Positions 11,588 through 49,589 of a stretch of 64,000 nucleotides of DNA are shown one piece after another. This DNA comes from Pseudomonas marginalis (GTDB lineage: Bacteria > Pseudomonadota > Gammaproteobacteria > Pseudomonadales > Pseudomonadaceae), in NCBI RefSeq assembly GCF_001645105.1, contig NZ_LKEG01000049.1, forward strand, positions 1 to 64,000, read 5' to 3'. The translations under genes were made by a program, and so were the position numbers. The notes beneath the pieces are model-generated. The model worked only from the letters and a program-made list of their open reading frames with translations, was not told the DNA's origin and searched no databases. Within the stretch, counting starts at the first letter, position 1, and each line of letters starts with the position of its first letter.

Positions 11588-12325
11588 CTACGTGTGGAGT
11601 TCCCGCACCTGCGGCACCTCAACCCTCGAGGGCCGGTAGAGCAACAGGCAGTACAGGCCCAGGCAGATTAACCAACAGAAAATCGCCGTCCATACATTGT
11701 GGGAGAAGAAGTGGGCGCCTTGCAGCATGCGGCTCACTGAAAAAGCGCTGCCCAGGCCGATGGCAAAGATGAATGCCTTGCGCGCCAGGCGTGGCCGGCG
11801 ATCGCGTAGCGCAAAGAACCAGGCAAACAAGGCAAACCCGGTTGCCGCATGACCGCCGGGCCAGCAGCGCCCAGGTTTATCCGTGGGCGGGCGCGAGCTC
11901 AGCAGTGCGCTGTAGGTTTCCTGGCCGCCGAATTCCTTGAGGCTCCAGGGGCACTGCACGGCGGTGATGGTTTTCAACGGCGAGACGAAGGCCGTCGCCA
12001 GGCCGAGGGACAGGACCAGGCAGACGAGTTCGCGGCGATAAGGCTTGAGCCGTTGCAGGATGAAGGTGCCGACAAGCCCTAGAATCGCCAGGACCGAAAA
12101 CAGGATGACCAATTGCTTGGCACGGTCATGCAGGATGTCTTCAAGGAAGAAACTGTAACGCCCGATGAAGCCGCCATCCGCCGCATTGTAGAAACGCTTG
12201 GCGAGGTCCATGTCCAGCGATGTCAGCTCCAGCAACAGCATCAGGAGCGCGCCACCGGCGGGTATGCCCAGGCACAGCCAAAGATTGAGTGGCTTGGAAG
12301 CCGGCGCCGCGAGTGTGGACTGCAT
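11588..12325 (-). CDS. PAP2-superfamily membrane phosphatase
   Basis: A 245-residue integral membrane protein with about six hydrophobic segments and the PAP2 (type 2 phosphatidic acid phosphatase) landmarks. Motif 1 is the region KTITAVQCPW, motif 2 is CWPGGHAATGFALFAW, and motif 3 is SRMLQGAHFFSHNVWTA. In the third motif the usual Asp after the catalytic His is replaced by His (HFFSH). Relatives dephosphorylate lipid phosphates such as lipid A, undecaprenyl diphosphate or phosphatidylglycerophosphate on the periplasmic face. It lies 50 bp downstream of the LtaS-like gene on the same strand, so the two probably work together. The substrate is not determinable here. Confidence 0.85.
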   Translation of the reverse strand: MQSTLAAPASKPLNLWLCLGIPAGGALLMLLLELTSLDMDLAKRFYNAADGGFIGRYSFFLEDILHDRAKQLVILFSVLAILGLVGTFILQRLKPYRRELVCLVLSLGLATAFVSPLKTITAVQCPWSLKEFGGQETYSALLSSRPPTDKPGRCWPGGHAATGFALFAWFFALRDRRPRLARKAFIFAIGLGSAFSVSRMLQGAHFFSHNVWTAIFCWLICLGLYCLLLYRPSRVEVPQVRELHT

Positions 12326-12375
12326 GACGAACCCTGCTTGAAGAATCCCGTACCGAACGGCACGGGACGTGTTCG

Positions 12376-14325
12376 TTAACGCTTGCTAAGTACCGGAGCC
12401 TCGTCCTTGGGGGCTCGCCATCCAAGTAATTGCTGCTTGAACCCGTAACTGGCGGCTTGGTAGTAGGTGATCGCCCGTTGGATCAACGCGTCATCGCTGC
12501 CGACCCGCAGCTCCTGGCTCTCGCCCAGGGCTTGATCGTGGCGACGCAGACCCAGGCGTGGGCTGAGGATCGCCAGGTCAGTGCCGTCAAACAAACCCAG
12601 GTGTTGATAGTTACCGACCACTACGCGCGGTGGCAGCGGGTTGTCCTGCAACAGGTTGCGGCCGAAGAAGGTTGATTCGTAGCTCAGGTTGATCAGGCCC
12701 AGCAAGGTTGGCGCCAGGTCGATCTGGCTGGCCAGTTGCGCGGTTTCCCGAGCATCGATCAGCTTGGGCGCATAGATGAACAGTGGAATCTGGTAGTTGG
12801 TGATAGGCAAGTCTTCCTTGCCCGCGCTGCCGGCCGTGTGGTCGGCGACGAACACGAAAATCGTGTTATCGAACCACGGCTTCTGGCGTGCTGCCTCCAG
12901 GAACTCGCCGATGGCATGGTCGGTGTATTTCACCGCGCCATCACGGCCGTTGCCGGATTTGATATCGATGCGCCCGTCCGGGTAGGTGTAGGGGCGATGG
13001 TTGGACGTGGTCATCAGTTGCAACAAAAACGGCTGCTGTTTGGCGTAGTCGGCATCGGCCAGCTTGAGGGTCTGTTTATACAGATCCTCGTCGGCCATGC
13101 CCCAGGCGTTTTTAAACGAGATCTCCGATTCAGGCACGCTGCTCTGATCGACGACCCGATAACCGTTGCCGCTGAAGAACGCGTTCATATTGTCGAAGTA
13201 ACCACGCCCGCCGTAGACGAACACACTGTCATAGCCAATGGCGCTGAGGTGTTGGCCGAGGCTGGCGAAGCCGCTTTCCCGGCCGATGCGCTTGACGATC
13301 GAGCGCCCAGGCGTGGGGGGAATTGCCAGGGTGATCGCTTCCAGACCGCGATCGGTGCGGGTGCCGGTGGCGTAGAAGTTATTGAAATACAGGCTCTGTT
13401 TGCGCAGCGCATCCAGGTTAGGCGTAAGGTTGCGGCCATCGCCATTACTGCCCAGGTACTTGGCGCTGAAGCTTTCGATGGTCACCAGCACGATGTTGGG
13501 TTTACGTAGCGTGCCTGGGTTGGTGATGGCGCGGCGGATATCCAGCGGATCCTGGCCGATGAAGCGCGCGTTGGGTTCGCTGAGTTCAGCGCGCAGTTGT
13601 CGTGCCACGATGTCCGTCGGCAGGGTTTTGTAGAACTGCGGGTAATCCAGCTCGTTATTACGGAAGGCGGCAAAGAACTGATACGGGCCATTGCTCGCCA
13701 ACTCGTTCTTGTAGGCATTGCCGCCCTGCGTGCGCGGGCTGTCCTGGCTGATCAGTTGCAGGCTCAGGCCGGTGACGACCAGCAAGGCCAGGGCGTTCAG
13801 CAGACGACCACGCATCGCCGGCAGCGGGGCACTCATCGCTGCGTTGAATGGCTTGCGCAGGGCCAGGCTCAGCACAATGGCCAGCATCGCCAGCAGGCTG
13901 AGCAGTTTGCCGATCGGGTAGGACTCCAACAGGTTGTTCAACACCTCATCGGAATACACCAGGTAATCGACGGCGATAAAGTTGAAGCGCACGCCGAATT
14001 CATCCCAGAACAACCATTCGGCAACCGAAGTAAACAACATGGCGAACAGGCTGACAGTCAGCACTGCCTGCAGGAACCAACGGTGCCCACGGCGGCGCCA
14101 CAGGGCGGGTGGGCATAGCAGCAGGTACAGCCCCAGTGGCAGGGCGGCGTAGGCTAGAAAACCCAAGTCGTAGAGCACACCCACACCAAACACCGGCAGT
14201 AAGTTGCCTCCGACCTCGTCCAGGTGAGTGATGAGCAGTACGCTGCGTGTGAGCAAGAAAATAACCAGCCAGGCACCGGTTACCAACAGCAAATAGCGCA
14301 TTGGCGCAGTTTTGAACAAACCCAT
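12376..14325 (-). CDS. LtaS/sulfatase-family membrane phosphotransferase
   Basis: The 649-residue protein has an N-terminal block of about five transmembrane helices (to roughly residue 200) and a periplasmic alkaline-phosphatase-fold domain. That domain opens with KPNIVLVTIESFSAKYLGSNG, where the Thr in VTIES is the nucleophile position of LtaS-type enzymes. It continues with FNNFYATGTRTDRGLEAITL and ends with FVFVADHTAGSAG (metal-binding D-H). Such proteins transfer phosphoglycerol, phosphoethanolamine or similar groups to envelope glycans or lipids. The start at 14325 has AAGGAA 7 bp upstream; upstream Met codons add an unconserved leader. It lies next to and divergent from colR, and PP_0900-like ColR-activated genes occupy this place in P. 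putida as I recall. Confidence 0.85.
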   Translation of the reverse strand: MGLFKTAPMRYLLLVTGAWLVIFLLTRSVLLITHLDEVGGNLLPVFGVGVLYDLGFLAYAALPLGLYLLLCPPALWRRRGHRWFLQAVLTVSLFAMLFTSVAEWLFWDEFGVRFNFIAVDYLVYSDEVLNNLLESYPIGKLLSLLAMLAIVLSLALRKPFNAAMSAPLPAMRGRLLNALALLVVTGLSLQLISQDSPRTQGGNAYKNELASNGPYQFFAAFRNNELDYPQFYKTLPTDIVARQLRAELSEPNARFIGQDPLDIRRAITNPGTLRKPNIVLVTIESFSAKYLGSNGDGRNLTPNLDALRKQSLYFNNFYATGTRTDRGLEAITLAIPPTPGRSIVKRIGRESGFASLGQHLSAIGYDSVFVYGGRGYFDNMNAFFSGNGYRVVDQSSVPESEISFKNAWGMADEDLYKQTLKLADADYAKQQPFLLQLMTTSNHRPYTYPDGRIDIKSGNGRDGAVKYTDHAIGEFLEAARQKPWFDNTIFVFVADHTAGSAGKEDLPITNYQIPLFIYAPKLIDARETAQLASQIDLAPTLLGLINLSYESTFFGRNLLQDNPLPPRVVVGNYQHLGLFDGTDLAILSPRLGLRRHDQALGESQELRVGSDDALIQRAITYYQAASYGFKQQLLGWRAPKDEAPVLSKR

Positions 14326-14392
14326 GTCTATGTTCCTTATATCAATGGGGGCGATCTTCGCCCTGACACTGTAGTCAGTTTGTGAAGCTATA

Positions 14393-14400
14393 GTGAAAAA
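14393..14400 (-). promoter_or_regulatory. TTTTTCAC motif upstream of the LtaS-like gene, candidate ColR site
   Basis: On the minus strand the sequence TTTTTCAC lies about 70 bp upstream of the start at 14325. It matches the conserved right half of the ColR-binding pattern as I recall it (ending YTTTTCAC); the left half matches only partly. A second copy lies upstream of warA. Confidence 0.4.
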
Positions 14401-14525
14401 CTCGTTCGACAATACAATCAGTTGAAAAGCTTTATCGACAGGCCTTTCAGCTCTATCCCTGAGCCCCACTTGGCCTTAAGCTGCGCGAGCCAACACGGCC
14501 GTTACCGCGTACGGAGACACTGCCC

Positions 14526-15209
14526 ATGCGAATTTTATTGGTTGAAGACAACCGCGATATCCTCGCCAACCTGGCGGATTACCTGGGGTTGAAGGGCTAT
14601 ACCGTGGACTGTGCGCAGGACGGTTTGTCAGGCCTGCACCTGGCCGCCACCGAGCATTACGACCTGATCGTGCTCGACATCATGCTGCCCGGCATCGACG
14701 GCTACACCCTGTGCAAGCGCCTGCGTGAAGACGCCCGCCGTGACACGCCGGTGATCATGCTCACCGCCCGCGACCAACTCGACGACCGGCTGCAGGGCTT
14801 CAAGTCCGGTGCCGATGACTACCTGCTCAAGCCGTTTGCCCTGTCGGAACTGGCCGCGCGTATCGAAGCCGTGCTGCGCCGTGCCCAGGGCGGCGGTCGC
14901 CGCGCCCTGCAGGTGGGTGACCTGAGCTACGACCTCGACACCCTGGAAGTCACCCGCGAGGGGCGCCTGCTCAAGCTCAACCCGGTCGGCCTGAAACTGC
15001 TGGCGGTACTGATGCAGAAAAGCCCGCACGTGCTGCGCCGCGAAATTCTCGAAGAAGCCCTGTGGGGCGATGACTGCCCGGACAGCGACAGCCTGCGCAG
15101 CCACGTTCATCAATTGCGCCAAGTGATCGATAAGCCGTTCGCCAAACCGTTGCTGCAAACAGTGCACGGCGTGGGTTATCGCCTGGCCGAGGGTCGTGAT
15201 GGAGTTTAA
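14526..15209 (+). CDS. colR: Response regulator ColR (OmpR family)
   Basis: A 227-residue regulator with a receiver domain (acidic pocket E7-D8, phosphoacceptor D51 in LIVLDIMLPG, T in MLTA, K in LLKPF) and an OmpR-type winged-helix DNA-binding domain (LSYDLDTLEVTREGR ... LRSHVHQLRQVIDK). In Pseudomonas ColR with ColS preserves membrane integrity and responds to excess Zn, Fe, Mn or Cd; it activates envelope-modifying genes. The same neighbours are present here: warA and inaA downstream, the LtaS-like gene divergent upstream. Its coding end overlaps colS by 11 bases. Confidence 0.93.
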   Translation: MRILLVEDNRDILANLADYLGLKGYTVDCAQDGLSGLHLAATEHYDLIVLDIMLPGIDGYTLCKRLREDARRDTPVIMLTARDQLDDRLQGFKSGADDYLLKPFALSELAARIEAVLRRAQGGGRRALQVGDLSYDLDTLEVTREGRLLKLNPVGLKLLAVLMQKSPHVLRREILEEALWGDDCPDSDSLRSHVHQLRQVIDKPFAKPLLQTVHGVGYRLAEGRDGV

Positions 15210-16479
15210 GCAAAGCCTTTCCCAACGGATCATCATCGCCTTTGCCTTGATGAGTGCGTTGGTGGCGGGCGCCTTTGCCATGGGCATCGTGGCGACTGTG
15301 CACTTGGTCGAAGAAAAGTTGATCTCGGCGGGCCTGGGCGGTGACTTGCAGCGTCTGCTGCTGATGGACACGGTCGAGGACTGGCGGCACCGGCCCGAGC
15401 CGGACCAACTGTTTTACTTCAGCGGTGGGCCTGGCGACTTTGAGTTGCCCAAGGATTTGCGGCACCTTGAGCCCGGGTTCCATGAAGTATTCCGCGAGAC
15501 GCTGTCGTACCACGCCATGGTCGAAGTCATTGACGGCAGGCGCTACGTGCTGCTGCAGGATCAAAGCGATTTCGAAGAACGCGAGCGGGTGCTGTTTGCG
15601 GTCGTGCTGGTGGGCTTCGTCCTCAGCCTGGCGCTGGCAGTGTTCCTGGGTTGGGTGCTGGCGCGCAAAGTGATGGCACCGGTCGTGCGTCTGGCCCGCC
15701 AGGTACGTCACCGTGACCAGTTGCTGGGCCTGGCACCGCCCCTGGCGCCGGACTACGCGGCGGATGAAGTGGGTGAGCTGGCCGTGGCCTTTGATGCCAC
15801 GCTGGGAAGGCTGCGTCAGGCGCTGTCCCGCGAGCAGATGTTTACCAGCGATGTAAGCCACGAATTGCGCACGCCGTTGATGGTATTGGCCAGCTCCTGC
15901 GAACTGTTGCTGGAAAACCCGGCCATCGATCAGCGTGGGCGTAACCAGGTACAGCGTATCGCCCGGGCGTGTGAAGAGATGCGTGAGCTGGTGCAAACCT
16001 TCCTGATGCTTGCCCGCGCCGAACACGACAATGCGTCGATGTCGCCACAGGTGACGTTGCCGCAGGTCGCCGATGACTTACTCGGCATCTGGCGTGAACA
16101 AATCGAGCGTAAAGGCCTGGAACTGATCTACCAGCCGGGTAACCCCCTGGACACGCGCTACAACACCACCTTCCTGCATGCGGTAATGGGCAACCTGTTA
16201 CGCAACGCCTTGCACTACACCGAACACGGCTTTATCCGCCTCACGTTGGAGCCGAGCGGTTTTGTGGTGGAAGACTCCGGAGTGGGCATTCCGGAAGACA
16301 AGCGCGAAGCGATGTTCGAGCCCTTCGTGCGCGGCAACGAGAAACGCGGTGAAGGCTTGGGCTTGGGCTTGTCGCTGGTCCAGCGGATCTGCGAAAACCA
16401 GGGCTGGAGCGTCAGCCTCAGCACCATGGAGCCCAACGGCTGCCGCTTTCATGTGCAATTGAGTCAGGTCAACGCCTGA
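15199..16479 (+). CDS. colS: Sensor histidine kinase ColS
   Basis: The 426-residue kinase has two membrane helices (about 11-33 and 131-153) around a periplasmic sensor of roughly 96 residues. A HAMP region follows, then an H-box SHELRTPL with H221, and an ATPase domain with N, G1 (VVEDSGVGIPEDK) and G2 (GEGLGLGLSLV) boxes. Metal-binding residues reported for P. putida ColS are present at the same numbers: H35, E38, D57, E96, H105 and the E126-x-x-E129 pair. That supports a metal-sensing role. ATG at 15199 is preferred, with GAGGG just upstream; a GTG at 15196 is in frame. It is cotranscribed with colR. Confidence 0.93.
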   Translation: MEFKQSLSQRIIIAFALMSALVAGAFAMGIVATVHLVEEKLISAGLGGDLQRLLLMDTVEDWRHRPEPDQLFYFSGGPGDFELPKDLRHLEPGFHEVFRETLSYHAMVEVIDGRRYVLLQDQSDFEERERVLFAVVLVGFVLSLALAVFLGWVLARKVMAPVVRLARQVRHRDQLLGLAPPLAPDYAADEVGELAVAFDATLGRLRQALSREQMFTSDVSHELRTPLMVLASSCELLLENPAIDQRGRNQVQRIARACEEMRELVQTFLMLARAEHDNASMSPQVTLPQVADDLLGIWREQIERKGLELIYQPGNPLDTRYNTTFLHAVMGNLLRNALHYTEHGFIRLTLEPSGFVVEDSGVGIPEDKREAMFEPFVRGNEKRGEGLGLGLSLVQRICENQGWSVSLSTMEPNGCRFHVQLSQVNA

Positions 16480-16593
16480 CTCCACCCCTCCTGCCGCAAT
16501 CCTGCCAGAGATCCCCGCTATTCGGCGAAGATGGCCCCATGCCATTGCTTGTGTCTGTAAAGTCTTGAAATGTATGGGATTGGACAGGACAAG

Positions 16594-16601
16594 TTTTTCA
16601 C
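16594..16601 (+). promoter_or_regulatory. TTTTTCAC motif upstream of warA, candidate ColR site
   Basis: TTTTTCAC sits 67 bp before the warA start, in the 189-bp gap after colS. It is the same octamer as on the other side of colR (14393-14400, minus strand), oriented toward its own downstream gene in both cases. Confidence 0.4.
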
Positions 16602-16668
16602 AACTGGTTGACCTGTTGATCACAGTTCACTGCTTAAGGTTGTAGGCATCAGTAACTGGAGATCAGTG

Positions 16669-17349
16669 ATGTCTACCCCGATCAAACTCGAATTTTCCGA
16701 AAAGTACGACGACGAGCACGCGCAGAATTATTTGCTCAAGCATCAGGACAATCTGGCTCGCCGGCTGTCCCACAAACGCGACGAGCAATTAGCGCGCGGT
16801 GCGCTGGCCATGGCCGGTGAGCCGGGGTTGGTGCTGGACCTGCCATGCGGGGCCGGGCGGTTCTGGCCGTTGCTGGCGGAGAAGCCCAACCGTGTGATTA
16901 TCGGTGCCGACAATTCAGAGTCGATGTTGAAGGTCGCCACAATCGCCCAACCGGCGGACGTGGTGAAACGGGTACGCCCCTTGCAGACATCTGCCTTTGA
17001 TATCGATTTGCCAGATAACTCGGTCGACAGCATCTTCTGCATGCGCCTGATGCACCATATTGGTGATCCGGCTCACAGGCTAGCGATACTGCGGGAATTT
17101 CAGCGTGTTACCCGCGACAGCGTCATCATTTCGCTTTGGGTGGATGGCAATTTCAAGGCCTGGAAACGCAAGCGCGCCGAAGTAAAACGTCGCAACAAGG
17201 GTGAGCAGGAAGGTTACCAAAACCGGTTTGTGTTACCGGCTGCTACTGTTGAAGCAGAATTTGAGGAAGCGGGTTTCCGTGTCCAGGAGTCCCTGGACTT
17301 CATACCGCTCTACGCCATGTGGCGAGTCTATGTATTGCGCAAGAGGTAA
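16669..17349 (+). CDS. warA: SAM-dependent methyltransferase, WarA-like
   Basis: This 226-residue class I methyltransferase has the SAM-binding motif LVLDLPCGAGRFWPLL, an acidic residue after strand 2 (IIGADNSESM), and the post-motif FDIDLPDNSVDSIFCMRLMHHI. In P. aeruginosa the gene after colRS was named warA (PA4379) and linked to LPS O-antigen control together with a kinase-like partner. Start: GGAG lies 9 bp before the ATG at 16669; a GTG directly before it is also in frame. inaA follows after 4 bp, forming an operon. Confidence 0.85.
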   Translation: MSTPIKLEFSEKYDDEHAQNYLLKHQDNLARRLSHKRDEQLARGALAMAGEPGLVLDLPCGAGRFWPLLAEKPNRVIIGADNSESMLKVATIAQPADVVKRVRPLQTSAFDIDLPDNSVDSIFCMRLMHHIGDPAHRLAILREFQRVTRDSVIISLWVDGNFKAWKRKRAEVKRRNKGEQEGYQNRFVLPAATVEAEFEEAGFRVQESLDFIPLYAMWRVYVLRKR

Positions 17350-17353
17350 CAGG

Positions 17354-18073
17354 ATGGCAGTTGAGTGCGTAGCGGGCAGTCACGTAGCTCCCGAAGAGCG
17401 ATTCGATTATTTCTGGCGCCAGCAGGGCGAGTGGGTCGAGGAGCCTAACCGTCGGCGTGGCGGTGAAAGTGGCGTGCAACGGGTCATGGGCCCCAATGGA
17501 CGCTTGCTCTACAGCAAACGCCAGACTGGGCATATCTACCGCAGCTGGTTGCACCCGTTCGGCCGCCCCACGGTGTTGCGTGAGCGCGATGCCATCAAGG
17601 GCCTGCGCCTGTTGGATGTGCGAGTGCCGGAGATGGTGTTTTGCGAGGCGCGCCGCGACCCCGAGCACCAATGGAAGGCGTTATTGGTTACCGCCTCTCT
17701 CGACGGTTTCGACGAAATCGAAAACTGGTACGCCGCCGGTGGCCGCGAACAGTACGGCGAGTTGGTTCACGAGCGTCTGCTCAAGGAATTGGCCGGGACC
17801 CTGGCGCGTATGCACAAGGGCCGCTGGCAGCATGGCTGCCTGTACATCAAGCATATTTTCGTGCGGGTGACGGGCGAAGGTGACTCGGCCAACGTGGAAG
17901 TGGCGCTGCTGGATTTCGAGAAATGCCGCCAGCGTTTGACCGCTTATCGGGCGGCCTCCCATGACATGCTGCAATTGCGCCGCCATTCGTCGTGGAACGA
18001 TACCGACTGGAAGAAACTCAGCTATTTTTATGAGACGGCGTTTGGCAGCGCTATCAAGGGTTTAACCAGATGA
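17354..18073 (+). CDS. inaA: InaA/WaaP-like lipopolysaccharide kinase family protein
   Basis: The 239-residue protein has the fold signatures of the Kdo/WaaP kinase family: a VMGPNGRLLYSKRQTGHIYRS N-lobe with a Lys, and a catalytic-loop-like segment LARMHKGRWQHGCLYIKHIFV. A metal-binding segment VALLDFEKCRQRL with the usual Asp follows. WaaP proteins phosphorylate inner-core heptose of LPS; inaA was first described as weak-acid-inducible in E. coli. It follows warA by 4 bp and overlaps the next small gene by 4 bp, so the three are translationally coupled. The actual substrate is unknown. Confidence 0.87.
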   Translation: MAVECVAGSHVAPEERFDYFWRQQGEWVEEPNRRRGGESGVQRVMGPNGRLLYSKRQTGHIYRSWLHPFGRPTVLRERDAIKGLRLLDVRVPEMVFCEARRDPEHQWKALLVTASLDGFDEIENWYAAGGREQYGELVHERLLKELAGTLARMHKGRWQHGCLYIKHIFVRVTGEGDSANVEVALLDFEKCRQRLTAYRAASHDMLQLRRHSSWNDTDWKKLSYFYETAFGSAIKGLTR

Positions 18074-18297
18074 AGCTAGAAATAGCACGAGGTTTGTTCC
18101 TGGTCGGGGCGCTGGGCGTTGCAGCCTTGGCGCTGGCGGCGTGGGAACAGCCCCGCACACAGGTGCTCAGTGCAACGCAGGGTGGCGGGCAATGCCTGTT
18201 GCCGCGCGTCGCCAAGACCAGTGTGGCGGTCAAGCCTGATCATGAGTTGTTGCTGTTCATGTTTGGAATGTCTCAAGGGATGAGGCCGCAGAGTTGA
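18070..18297 (+). CDS. Small membrane or exported protein after inaA
   Basis: A 75-residue product whose ATG overlaps the inaA stop (ATGA). It has one hydrophobic helix near the N-terminus (LFLVGALGVAALALAAW) with a preceding Lys/Arg, so it is either secreted or single-pass. The rest has one Cys (GGGQCLLPR) and ends in a Met-rich stretch (LFMFGMSQGM). I do not recognise a family. The coupling to inaA and the terminator right after it make it the last gene of the warA-inaA operon, and suggest an envelope role under ColRS. Confidence 0.75.
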   Translation: MKLEIARGLFLVGALGVAALALAAWEQPRTQVLSATQGGGQCLLPRVAKTSVAVKPDHELLLFMFGMSQGMRPQS

Positions 18298-48657: not shown

Positions 48658-48833
48658 GGCCGGGTTCCTGCTGTTGGCTTCGTTGAGGTGGCCATACTGC
48701 AACCCAAGGCGGCTAATTTCCATCGGCGATATGGAATTTTCATTCCTCGCCCACCTATTTTTCACAGTTCCCCGTTCAGTCTGCGCCCAAGGTCGACACC
48801 CCCATAAGACTGAACCTTGGAGCCTTCTACCGC

Positions 48834-49589
48834 ATGAACAAACTTCCTCAGATCACCCTCGCGTTCTGGGTCATGAAAATCTGCGCAACCACCCTAGGCG
48901 AAACCGCCGGGGATTTGCTGTCGATGACGCTGAATGTCGGTTATGCCATCAGCTCAATGATCCTGATCAGCGTGTTCCTGGTCACCTTGGTGACGCAACT
49001 CTGGTCCAAAACCTACAACCCCGTGCTCTACTGGATCGTGATCCTGTCCACCAGCACCGCCGGCACTACGATGTCGGACTTCATGGACCGCACCCTCGGC
49101 CTGGGCTACGCCACGGGGTCGATGATCCTGATTGTGATCCTGATGATCATCTTTGCCGTGTGGCACCTCAGTGGTGACTCGCTGAACGTGAACAAGGTGC
49201 AGACCTTCCGAGGTGAGTTGTTCTACTGGATGGCGATCCTGTTCTCCAACACCTTGGGCACGGCCTTGGGCGATTTCCTCGCGGACGATTCGGGGCTTGG
49301 TTTTGGCGGTGGCGCCTTGTTGATCGGCTCGACCATCGCCGCGGTGGTGGCGCTCAAGTACTTCACCCGGATCTCGTCGGTGCTGTTGTTCTGGGTGGCG
49401 TTTGTGTTGACGCGGCCATTCGGCGCAACACTGGGGGACTTTCTCACCAAGCCCCATGAAAAGGGCGGATTGGACTTTGGCACGGTGGGGTCGTCGGCGG
49501 TGTTGGCGGGTGTGTTGCTGGTGATGATTGTGGCTGCATCGTATGCGCAGCGGCGGTATGGGCAGCGTGAGGTTGCGGAACTGTCCTGA
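48834..49589 (+). CDS. Multi-pass membrane protein of four similar units (COG4705-like)
   Basis: A 251-residue integral membrane protein of unknown function. Four units each begin with a W-containing helix, contain a small-residue turn with an acidic residue, and end in a Gly/Ser helix: TTLGETAGDLLSMTLNVGYAISS, GTTMSDFMDRTLGLGYATGS, GTALGDFLADDSGLGFGGGAL and GATLGDFLTKPHEKGGLDFG. Each unit has two helices, so about eight cross the membrane. The recurring Asp in the membrane suggests an ion- or small-solute carrier, but that is inference. GGAG lies 12 bp before the ATG, rather far. It diverges from the flavin reductase gene and is followed by a terminator. Confidence 0.82.
   Translation: MNKLPQITLAFWVMKICATTLGETAGDLLSMTLNVGYAISSMILISVFLVTLVTQLWSKTYNPVLYWIVILSTSTAGTTMSDFMDRTLGLGYATGSMILIVILMIIFAVWHLSGDSLNVNKVQTFRGELFYWMAILFSNTLGTALGDFLADDSGLGFGGGALLIGSTIAAVVALKYFTRISSVLLFWVAFVLTRPFGATLGDFLTKPHEKGGLDFGTVGSSAVLAGVLLVMIVAASYAQRRYGQREVAELS

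Follow-up and report, generated by a model that had tools for sequence, protein, structure and literature searches.

A ColRS locus of Pseudomonas marginalis in which an LtaS-like gene heads a predicted ColR-box operon

Introduction

In a 64,000-nucleotide stretch of Pseudomonas marginalis DNA (contig NZ_LKEG01000049.1, positions 1 to 64,000; hereafter the window), the genes of the ColRS two-component system lie between two outwardly directed units, one headed by a gene for an LtaS-like phosphotransferase and the other by a methyltransferase gene. The locus raises the question of whether both units answer to ColR and, if so, what their products would do to the cell envelope. A preliminary description of the sequence had proposed that all of these genes form one metal-triggered remodelling pathway, in which a PAP2 phosphatase clears a lipid by-product of the LtaS-like enzyme. 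Here, we conclude that ColR very probably controls both outward units, because the predicted ColR-box array in front of each is conserved in position and register and because, in P. putida, the orthologues of the PAP2 and methyltransferase genes are bound and activated by ColR (PMC2689224).

Published work supplies most of the framework. In P. putida, ColR was footprinted upstream of PP0900, a PAP2 gene divergent from colR, and of PP0903, and it activates both; the authors described its site as two direct repeats (PMC2689224). The PP0900 and PP0903 promoters show ColRS-dependent induction by excess zinc, ColS responds to zinc, iron, manganese and cadmium, residues E126 and E129 of ColS are required for the metal response, and the ColR targets are redundant (PMC4074579). 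Zinc strongly raises warA, warB and dgkA among the genes common to more than one Pseudomonas species (PMC7744410).

Results

Predicted arrays of four half-sites precede both outward units

The genes and predicted sites of the locus are arranged as follows.

11588..12325, minus strand: PAP2-superfamily membrane phosphatase, possibly LpxE-like (PF01569, 1.5e-21)
12376..14325, minus strand: LtaS/OpgB-like membrane phosphotransferase of 649 residues, sulfatase fold (PF00884, 1.3e-50)
14371..14408, minus strand: predicted ColR-box array of the LtaS-PAP2 unit, four AC half-sites, containing the octamer at 14393-14400
14526..15209, plus strand: ColR, OmpR-family response regulator (Pfam Response_reg and Trans_reg_C)
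15199..16479, plus strand: ColS sensor kinase (Pfam HAMP/HisKA/HATPase), with a FEERE (ExxE) motif at residues 125-129
16586..16623, plus strand: predicted ColR-box array of the methyltransferase operon, four AC half-sites, containing the octamer at 16594-16601
16669..17349, plus strand: S-adenosylmethionine methyltransferase (WarA/Orf222; Methyltransf_25, 7.2e-15)
17354..18073, plus strand: InaA/WaaP-family lipopolysaccharide kinase (WarB/WapQ; PF06293, 3.9e-56)
18070..18297, plus strand: 75-residue protein with one N-terminal membrane helix, by position the last gene of the right-hand unit

The gene order and couplings are those first described: all of the open reading frames (ORFs) are present and open, and the Pfam families could be confirmed for every product except the 75-residue protein. 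The LtaS-like and PAP2 genes, both on the minus strand, are separated by 50 bp, the start of colS overlaps the end of colR, and the 75-residue ORF overlaps the stop codon of the kinase gene (ATGA). Divergently oriented, colR and the LtaS-like gene are 200 bp apart if translation of the latter starts at the ATG at 14325, where the alignments of its homologues begin; an alternative, longer GTG start at 14469 would engulf the ColR box. By family and locus position, the PAP2 gene is the counterpart of P. putida PP0900, and by place the methyltransferase and kinase genes are those of PP0903 and PP0904. A plasmid comparison of the window returned two irrelevant Rhodococcus records at 3% coverage.

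The octamer TTTTTCAC, which had been pointed out in front of both outward units, is indeed found at 14393-14400 (minus strand) and 16594-16601 (plus strand), and each copy is part of a predicted ColR array. By itself the octamer is weak evidence: the window has seven copies against 1.6 expected, and one of 100 shuffles reaches seven. We rejected it as a stand-alone argument, since five of the seven copies lie elsewhere than in the two promoters. In both promoters, an AC half-site recurs at intervals of exactly 11 bp to give four in all, the second of which holds the end of the octamer; they lie at 14405-04, 14394-93, 14383-82 and 14372-71 (minus strand) in the left array and at 16589, 16600, 16611 and 16622 (plus strand) in the right one, and each array ends 45 bp from the start codon that it faces. 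A conserved A about 13 bp past the last half-site resembles part of a −10 element, and the third half-site may overlap the −35 position.

How specific these patterns are was judged in the window's own 6.6-Mb genome. The pattern ASNNNTTTTTSAC occurs three times in the window against 0.21 expected by shuffles, and 50 times genome-wide against 68 for the reversed control; the published 16-bp consensus gave 11 matches against 9. Neither is enriched over its control, and both were dropped as genome-wide filters. In contrast, a pattern of three half-sites in the 11-bp register gave five matches and none for the reversed control, and two of the five are the promoters described here. The 11-bp register is thus a sharper search pattern in this genome than the published consensus, at the price that a three-repeat pattern will miss known targets having only two half-sites. 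According to the ORF lists, none of the other three matches lies in a promoter-like place: L271 falls within an ORF, and L268 and L272 are each situated in the gap between converging ORFs. We also scored sites with a 16-bp matrix built from seven footprinted P. putida sites (PMC2689224). The site in the LtaS-like promoter scored 14.3, which none of 2,000 shuffles equalled.

Elsewhere in the window, a ColR-like site with a score of 14.1 (48750-48765, plus strand) ends 68 bp before a gene for a DUF347 membrane protein (48834-49589). In 30 genus loci, the window included, the best site at this place scores at least 13 in 18 cases (median 13.5), and at several of them half-sites lie in the 11-bp register. 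Judged from these sites, the gene is a possible further ColR target.

The arrays are conserved in position and register

We compared the colR neighbourhoods of 80 other genus genomes, 36 further LtaS-like loci and 80 named LtaS-like loci. The genus sample of 81 consists of the window and 80 genomes from among 150 listed ColR places of 199 genomes, and it leans to close relatives of ColR, which is 96-100% identical among those best 150 places. In all counts, relatives are not independent, and three genomes occur twice (L112/L193, L098/L196 and L151/L215). Rows with fewer than 200 nucleotides upstream or with an N were left out of the matrix-score counts.

A site scoring at least 13 precedes 97 of 100 colRS-linked LtaS-like genes (shuffles, 5/500), all 41 PAP2 genes that lie next to colR with no LtaS-like gene (shuffles, 5/205) and 102 of 138 methyltransferase genes (shuffles, 10/690). 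At control places such sites were rare: 2/125 before inaA, 0/84 before groEL, 0/153 before colS and 1/77 before PAP2 genes situated behind an LtaS-like gene. The register itself is held as well. At its four positions, AC is found 89, 93, 93 and 88 times in 93 distinct LtaS promoters with a site, 41, 41, 39 and 22 times in 41 PAP2-only promoters, and 100, 101, 100 and 68 times in 101 methyltransferase promoters; the fourth half-site is therefore the less constant one (88/93, 22/41 and 68/101). A strict array of three half-sites was present at 84 of 104 linked LtaS loci, 34 of 41 PAP2-only loci and 124 of 138 methyltransferase loci, and in none of 20,000 reversed random control windows. The 104 linked loci include a few with a paralogous ColR/ColS match (L152, L217 and L226 look so), which lowers the count. 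When the published P. putida sites were placed in the same register, PP0903 filled four AC positions and PP0900 three.

The left array mostly follows the LtaS/PAP2 unit

The left array lies within the 200-bp divergent region, and one could envision that it is an autoregulatory site of colR, with LtaS and PAP2 as bystanders. The losses of the left-hand genes bear on this. LtaS-like or PAP2 genes are kept at 69 of the 81 genus colR loci, and a strong box lies within 320 nucleotides upstream of colR in 68 of these 69; at the 12 loci lacking both genes, a strong box was found in only one. Conversely, for five LtaS-PAP2 pairs the upstream region is available and the retrieved sequence contains neither ColR nor ColS, and the array precedes three of them (L162, L167 and L176); two further unlinked pairs begin at a contig end. 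The array was found at none of 32 unlinked LtaS genes lacking PAP2. Because the box is mostly lost where both genes are missing and is present at the three unlinked pairs, the array mostly travels with the LtaS/PAP2 unit rather than with colR. Reporter data are in line with this, indicating that P. putida colR is not autoregulated, its promoter showing no clear response to ColR, zinc or iron (PMC2689224, PMC4074579). The array also points to LtaS/PAP2, at an even distance. Control of colR itself by this array is thus very improbable, and we favor the LtaS-PAP2 unit as its target.

Two observations concern the LtaS-like genes away from colRS. A second branch of them (mostly 70-77% identical; L153-L169, L218-L224 and others) has neither PAP2 nor the array. 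At L176 (G004 C34), the LtaS-PAP2 pair and its ColR array lie beside an ORF that is transposase-like by eye, a neighbour that suggests joint mobility of the two genes.

The LtaS-like protein is conserved and resembles LtaS and OpgB

Close named relatives of the LtaS-like protein are from P. marginalis and P. extremorientalis (94% identity). Compared with the sequences of solved structures, it matched 3lxq at 3.1e-68 and the chains of LtaS and lipoteichoic acid primase at 2e-10 to 8e-20, the best solved relative being the uncharacterised VP1736. Residues E284, T324, R374, D495 and H496 are present in 141 of 141 aligned homologues and H443 in 140; we take these to be catalytic and metal-ligand residues. 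The protein thus resembles Gram-positive LtaS and E. coli OpgB as a membrane-anchored sulfatase-fold enzyme with a catalytic Thr and conserved metal ligands, these roles being presumed. It differs from them in falling far under the curated cut-offs, with 71.8 bits against 970 for LtaS (NF053595) and 41.8 and 76.2 bits against 574 and 572 for OpgB and phosphoglycerol transferase I; its nearest NCBIfam model is phosphoglycerol transferase I (PRK12363; 76 bits against 572). No EptA-type Pfam or NCBIfam match was found at E <= 0.001. In LtaS, a Trp and an Arg bind glycerol phosphate; in one pairwise alignment these are replaced by D378 and M380, which are conserved in 141 and 140 of the 141 homologues, respectively.

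The PAP2 protein may be LpxE-like

Residues K118, P126, P156, G158, H159 and H205 of the PAP2 protein are invariant in 27 aligned sequences. They correspond to the Lys, Pro, Pro, Gly, His and His of Rhizobium LpxE that are thought to be catalytic, matched by motif spacing, except for the second His, which was matched by its position; the PAP2 superfamily in general has these residues. Matches of the set to NCBIfam models were confined to two lipid A phosphatases and the PAP2 protein encoded next to mcr-1, each matched by 27 of 27 sequences and all below cut-off (for the window protein, 94.9 bits against 275 for NF028538 and 75.8 against 475 for the mcr-1 neighbour). Its predicted structure (mean predicted local distance difference test score, pLDDT, 86.6) has the PAP2 fold; at the sequence level, comparison with solved structures gave spurious matches only. 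The conserved residues and the model matches suggest that the protein may be LpxE-like and act on lipid A, and Stewart and Ronald assigned the colRS-adjacent gene as lpxE (PMC8306577).

An alternative is that PAP2 dephosphorylates phosphatidic acid or undecaprenyl pyrophosphate, balancing DgkA in the service of lipid homeostasis, and that the LtaS-like enzyme modifies osmoregulated periplasmic glucans or some other acceptor that is not lipopolysaccharide; the two enzymes would then have the regulator alone in common. A PAP2/DgkA balance was proposed by Kivistik et al. (PMC2689224), the best solved fold for PAP2 is that of a phosphatidylglycerol phosphate (PGP) phosphatase, and PRK12363 is the nearest model to the LtaS-like protein, though far below its cut-off. 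The exclusive matches of the PAP2 set to lipid A phosphatase and mcr-1-neighbour models, below cut-off as they are, and the lpxE assignment speak against it. We regard this alternative as rather unlikely, and only slightly more doubtful than an LpxE-like dephosphorylation combined with head-group transfer, a chemistry that we propose tentatively.

The two left-hand genes are not tied to each other within the genus

The preliminary description held that PAP2 clears the lipid by-product of the LtaS-like enzyme, so that the two would carry out one reaction and its clean-up. The genes are adjacent and co-oriented and share one array, and at colR-like loci outside the genus they co-occur (19 with both, 2 with LtaS only, 12 with PAP2 only, 52 with neither; Fisher 4.8e-9, uncorrected for relatedness). 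However, transfer from a phospholipid by enzymes of the LtaS, OpgB or EptA type leaves diacylglycerol. This product has no phosphate ester and is beyond the reach of a phosphatase; it is a kinase substrate and can be removed by DgkA, which in P. putida is a target of ColR. Nor is there an association in the genus sample, in which 19 of the 81 loci have both genes, 9 LtaS only, 41 PAP2 only and 12 neither (Fisher p 0.43). Furthermore, the PAP2 gene of P. putida lies directly beside colR and is activated by ColR (PMC2689224). We consider clearance of a by-product quite improbable, and this part of the proposal is not supported.

The wider family sample comprised 98 colR-like loci in 119 genomes, with counts that depend on the E-value cut-offs: LtaS and PAP2 were both present at 26, LtaS alone at 2 and PAP2 alone at 13. 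Of 39 close LtaS homologues, 28 lie beside colR, and 26 of these are also accompanied by PAP2. Records of Stutzerimonas, Halopseudomonas and Azonexus show the LtaS-PAP2-colRS arrangement too, a biased sample in that it was found with an LtaS query. The LtaS-like gene heads a predicted ColR-box operon in part of Pseudomonas and in some Betaproteobacteria. The simplest reading is that LtaS-PAP2-colRS is an old module that repeatedly lost one or both of its left-hand genes, with PAP2 retained in P. putida. Separately, G209, G256, G285, G292 and G306 each have two ColR homologues (75-85% identical to the query), and PAP2 adjoins the less similar one; ColRS may have been duplicated there and its neighbours split between the copies.

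The right-hand unit and its 75-residue protein

The kinase scored 172.4 bits on the NCBIfam InaA model (cut-off 235). At the 81 genus colR loci, the 75-residue protein is present at all, the kinase at 77 and the methyltransferase at 74. The small protein is strongly conserved (MKLEIAR...WEQPR...PDHDLLLFMFG) and occurs in 79 of the 119 family genomes; it has no Pfam or NCBIfam match, and its low-confidence structural model has helices at residues 2-25 and 58-68. We considered it as a core part of the module and as a ColS feedback peptide. Both ideas are weakened by its placement in another genus (g15), where in 6 of 24 loci (L282, L285, L295, L296, L300 and L301) its gene is flanked immediately by groEL and an RND gene, leaving no space for ColRS, and by the finding that at loci lacking the methyltransferase and kinase (L076, L122 and L129) no box above 5.4 precedes it. 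The gene seems to be native to the groEL-RND interval and to have been drawn into the ColR operon.

Discussion

We think it probable that the window carries a fuller version of the ColRS locus, in which a metal signal activates two outward operons whose products alter surface lipids. The regulator and sensor fit this account: an OmpR-family regulator overlaps a HAMP-HisKA kinase whose periplasmic ExxE motif is kept at residues 126-129, and ColR-like boxes are predicted before the methyltransferase operon and the divergent unit. ColS would sense excess metal and phosphorylate ColR, which would bind the 11-bp-spaced half-sites before each operon, the four of them leaving room for two dimers and the third lying at about the −35 position. 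ColR would then activate the LtaS-like and PAP2 genes leftward, but not colR itself, and the methyltransferase, lipopolysaccharide kinase and small-protein genes rightward, and the enzymes would alter phosphate-bearing surface lipids. Most likely, PAP2 would dephosphorylate lipid A in the manner of LpxE, and the LtaS-like enzyme would move a phospholipid head group (phosphoglycerol, possibly phosphoethanolamine) to an acceptor in the periplasm, either lipid A or another, with DgkA recycling the diacylglycerol left behind. What we infer is that ColR controls the LtaS-like gene, how the dimers are arranged, which substrates are used and in what order the reactions take place. As for the single metal-triggered pathway proposed at the outset, the ColR regulon and the metal trigger are supported by the arrays, the P. 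putida data and the ExxE motif of ColS, while the union of all the genes in one pathway stays an inference.

Several observations weigh against this account. Neither window site has the full published 16-bp consensus. The methyltransferase promoter site is weak, with 10.8 at the conserved register and 11.8 at best within 220 nucleotides (shuffle p 0.013), against a median of 16.0 in relatives. Scores fall below 13 at 36 of 138 methyltransferase and 3 of 100 LtaS loci, and the strict array is missing from 20 of 104 linked LtaS loci. Of the seven published P. putida sites, only three have the third half-site, downstream of the core. The loss test has its exceptions: locus L103 lacks both genes and keeps a strong box (19.5), weak remnants persist at L120 and L137, and the unlinked pairs at L238 and L258 have no array. 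In the family sample, 57 of the 98 colR-like loci have neither LtaS nor PAP2. The PAP2 model is nearer to the B. subtilis PGP phosphatase 5jki (Z 14.4, 3.8 A over 187 residues) than to LpxE 6ebu (Z 11.8, 3.9 A over 156 residues), and Foldseek returned no match for it at E 0.001. Finally, we found no experiment on the LtaS-like gene in the literature searched.

The locus can be set beside several known systems. The P. putida locus (PP0900-colR-colS-PP0903-0905) shares the divergent PAP2 gene and the downstream operon of methyltransferase, InaA and hypothetical genes, with boxes footprinted at both, and it differs in that PAP2 lies directly beside colR with no LtaS-like gene in between. Pseudomonas sp. 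WCS365 likewise carries the warA/warB operon next to colRS, a PAP2 gene of this strain, pap2_2, depends on ColR, and deletions of warB and pap2_2 make it less competitive on roots; the available text names no LtaS-like gene (PMC8805031). In Xanthomonas, raxRH, a ColRS-orthologous system, also adjoins PAP2/LpxE and head-group transferase genes (eptA-lpxE-arnT; PMC8306577), but the transferase there is EptA, whereas that of the window is LtaS/OpgB-like, and arnT was not seen in the window locus. The mcr-1-hpap2 and mcr-3-dgkA cassettes (PMC7559476) pair a head-group transferase gene with a PAP2 or diacylglycerol kinase gene; unlike the window locus, they are mobile and encode transferases of the phosphoethanolamine family, and the window PAP2 scores far below cut-off on the mcr-1-neighbour model.

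Most of the locus and its regulation is therefore already known from relatives. As far as our literature search reaches, what is new is the LtaS-like gene as the head of the left ColR-box operon, the register of four half-sites and the loss test; neither that gene nor a four-repeat ColR array was reported in the literature searched, which consisted mostly of titles and abstract openings, with subscription journals largely uncovered.

One specific scenario is that the left-hand enzymes carry out a head-group exchange on lipid A under metal stress, with PAP2 removing a phosphate and the LtaS-like enzyme installing phosphoglycerol or another head group in its place. In H. pylori, LpxE acts ahead of EptA, as recounted by Stewart and Ronald (PMC8306577). 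We consider this scenario unlikely as it stands; if true, an LtaS-type enzyme in a Gram-negative envelope would, under paired ColR dimers on a four-repeat array, take the role that EptA plays after LpxE in Helicobacter. More generally, our results suggest that the ColR regulon was defined, in P. putida, on a form of the locus that lacks the LtaS-like gene, and they mark the LtaS-like protein as a conserved enzyme that is a candidate for remodelling the surface in response to metals.

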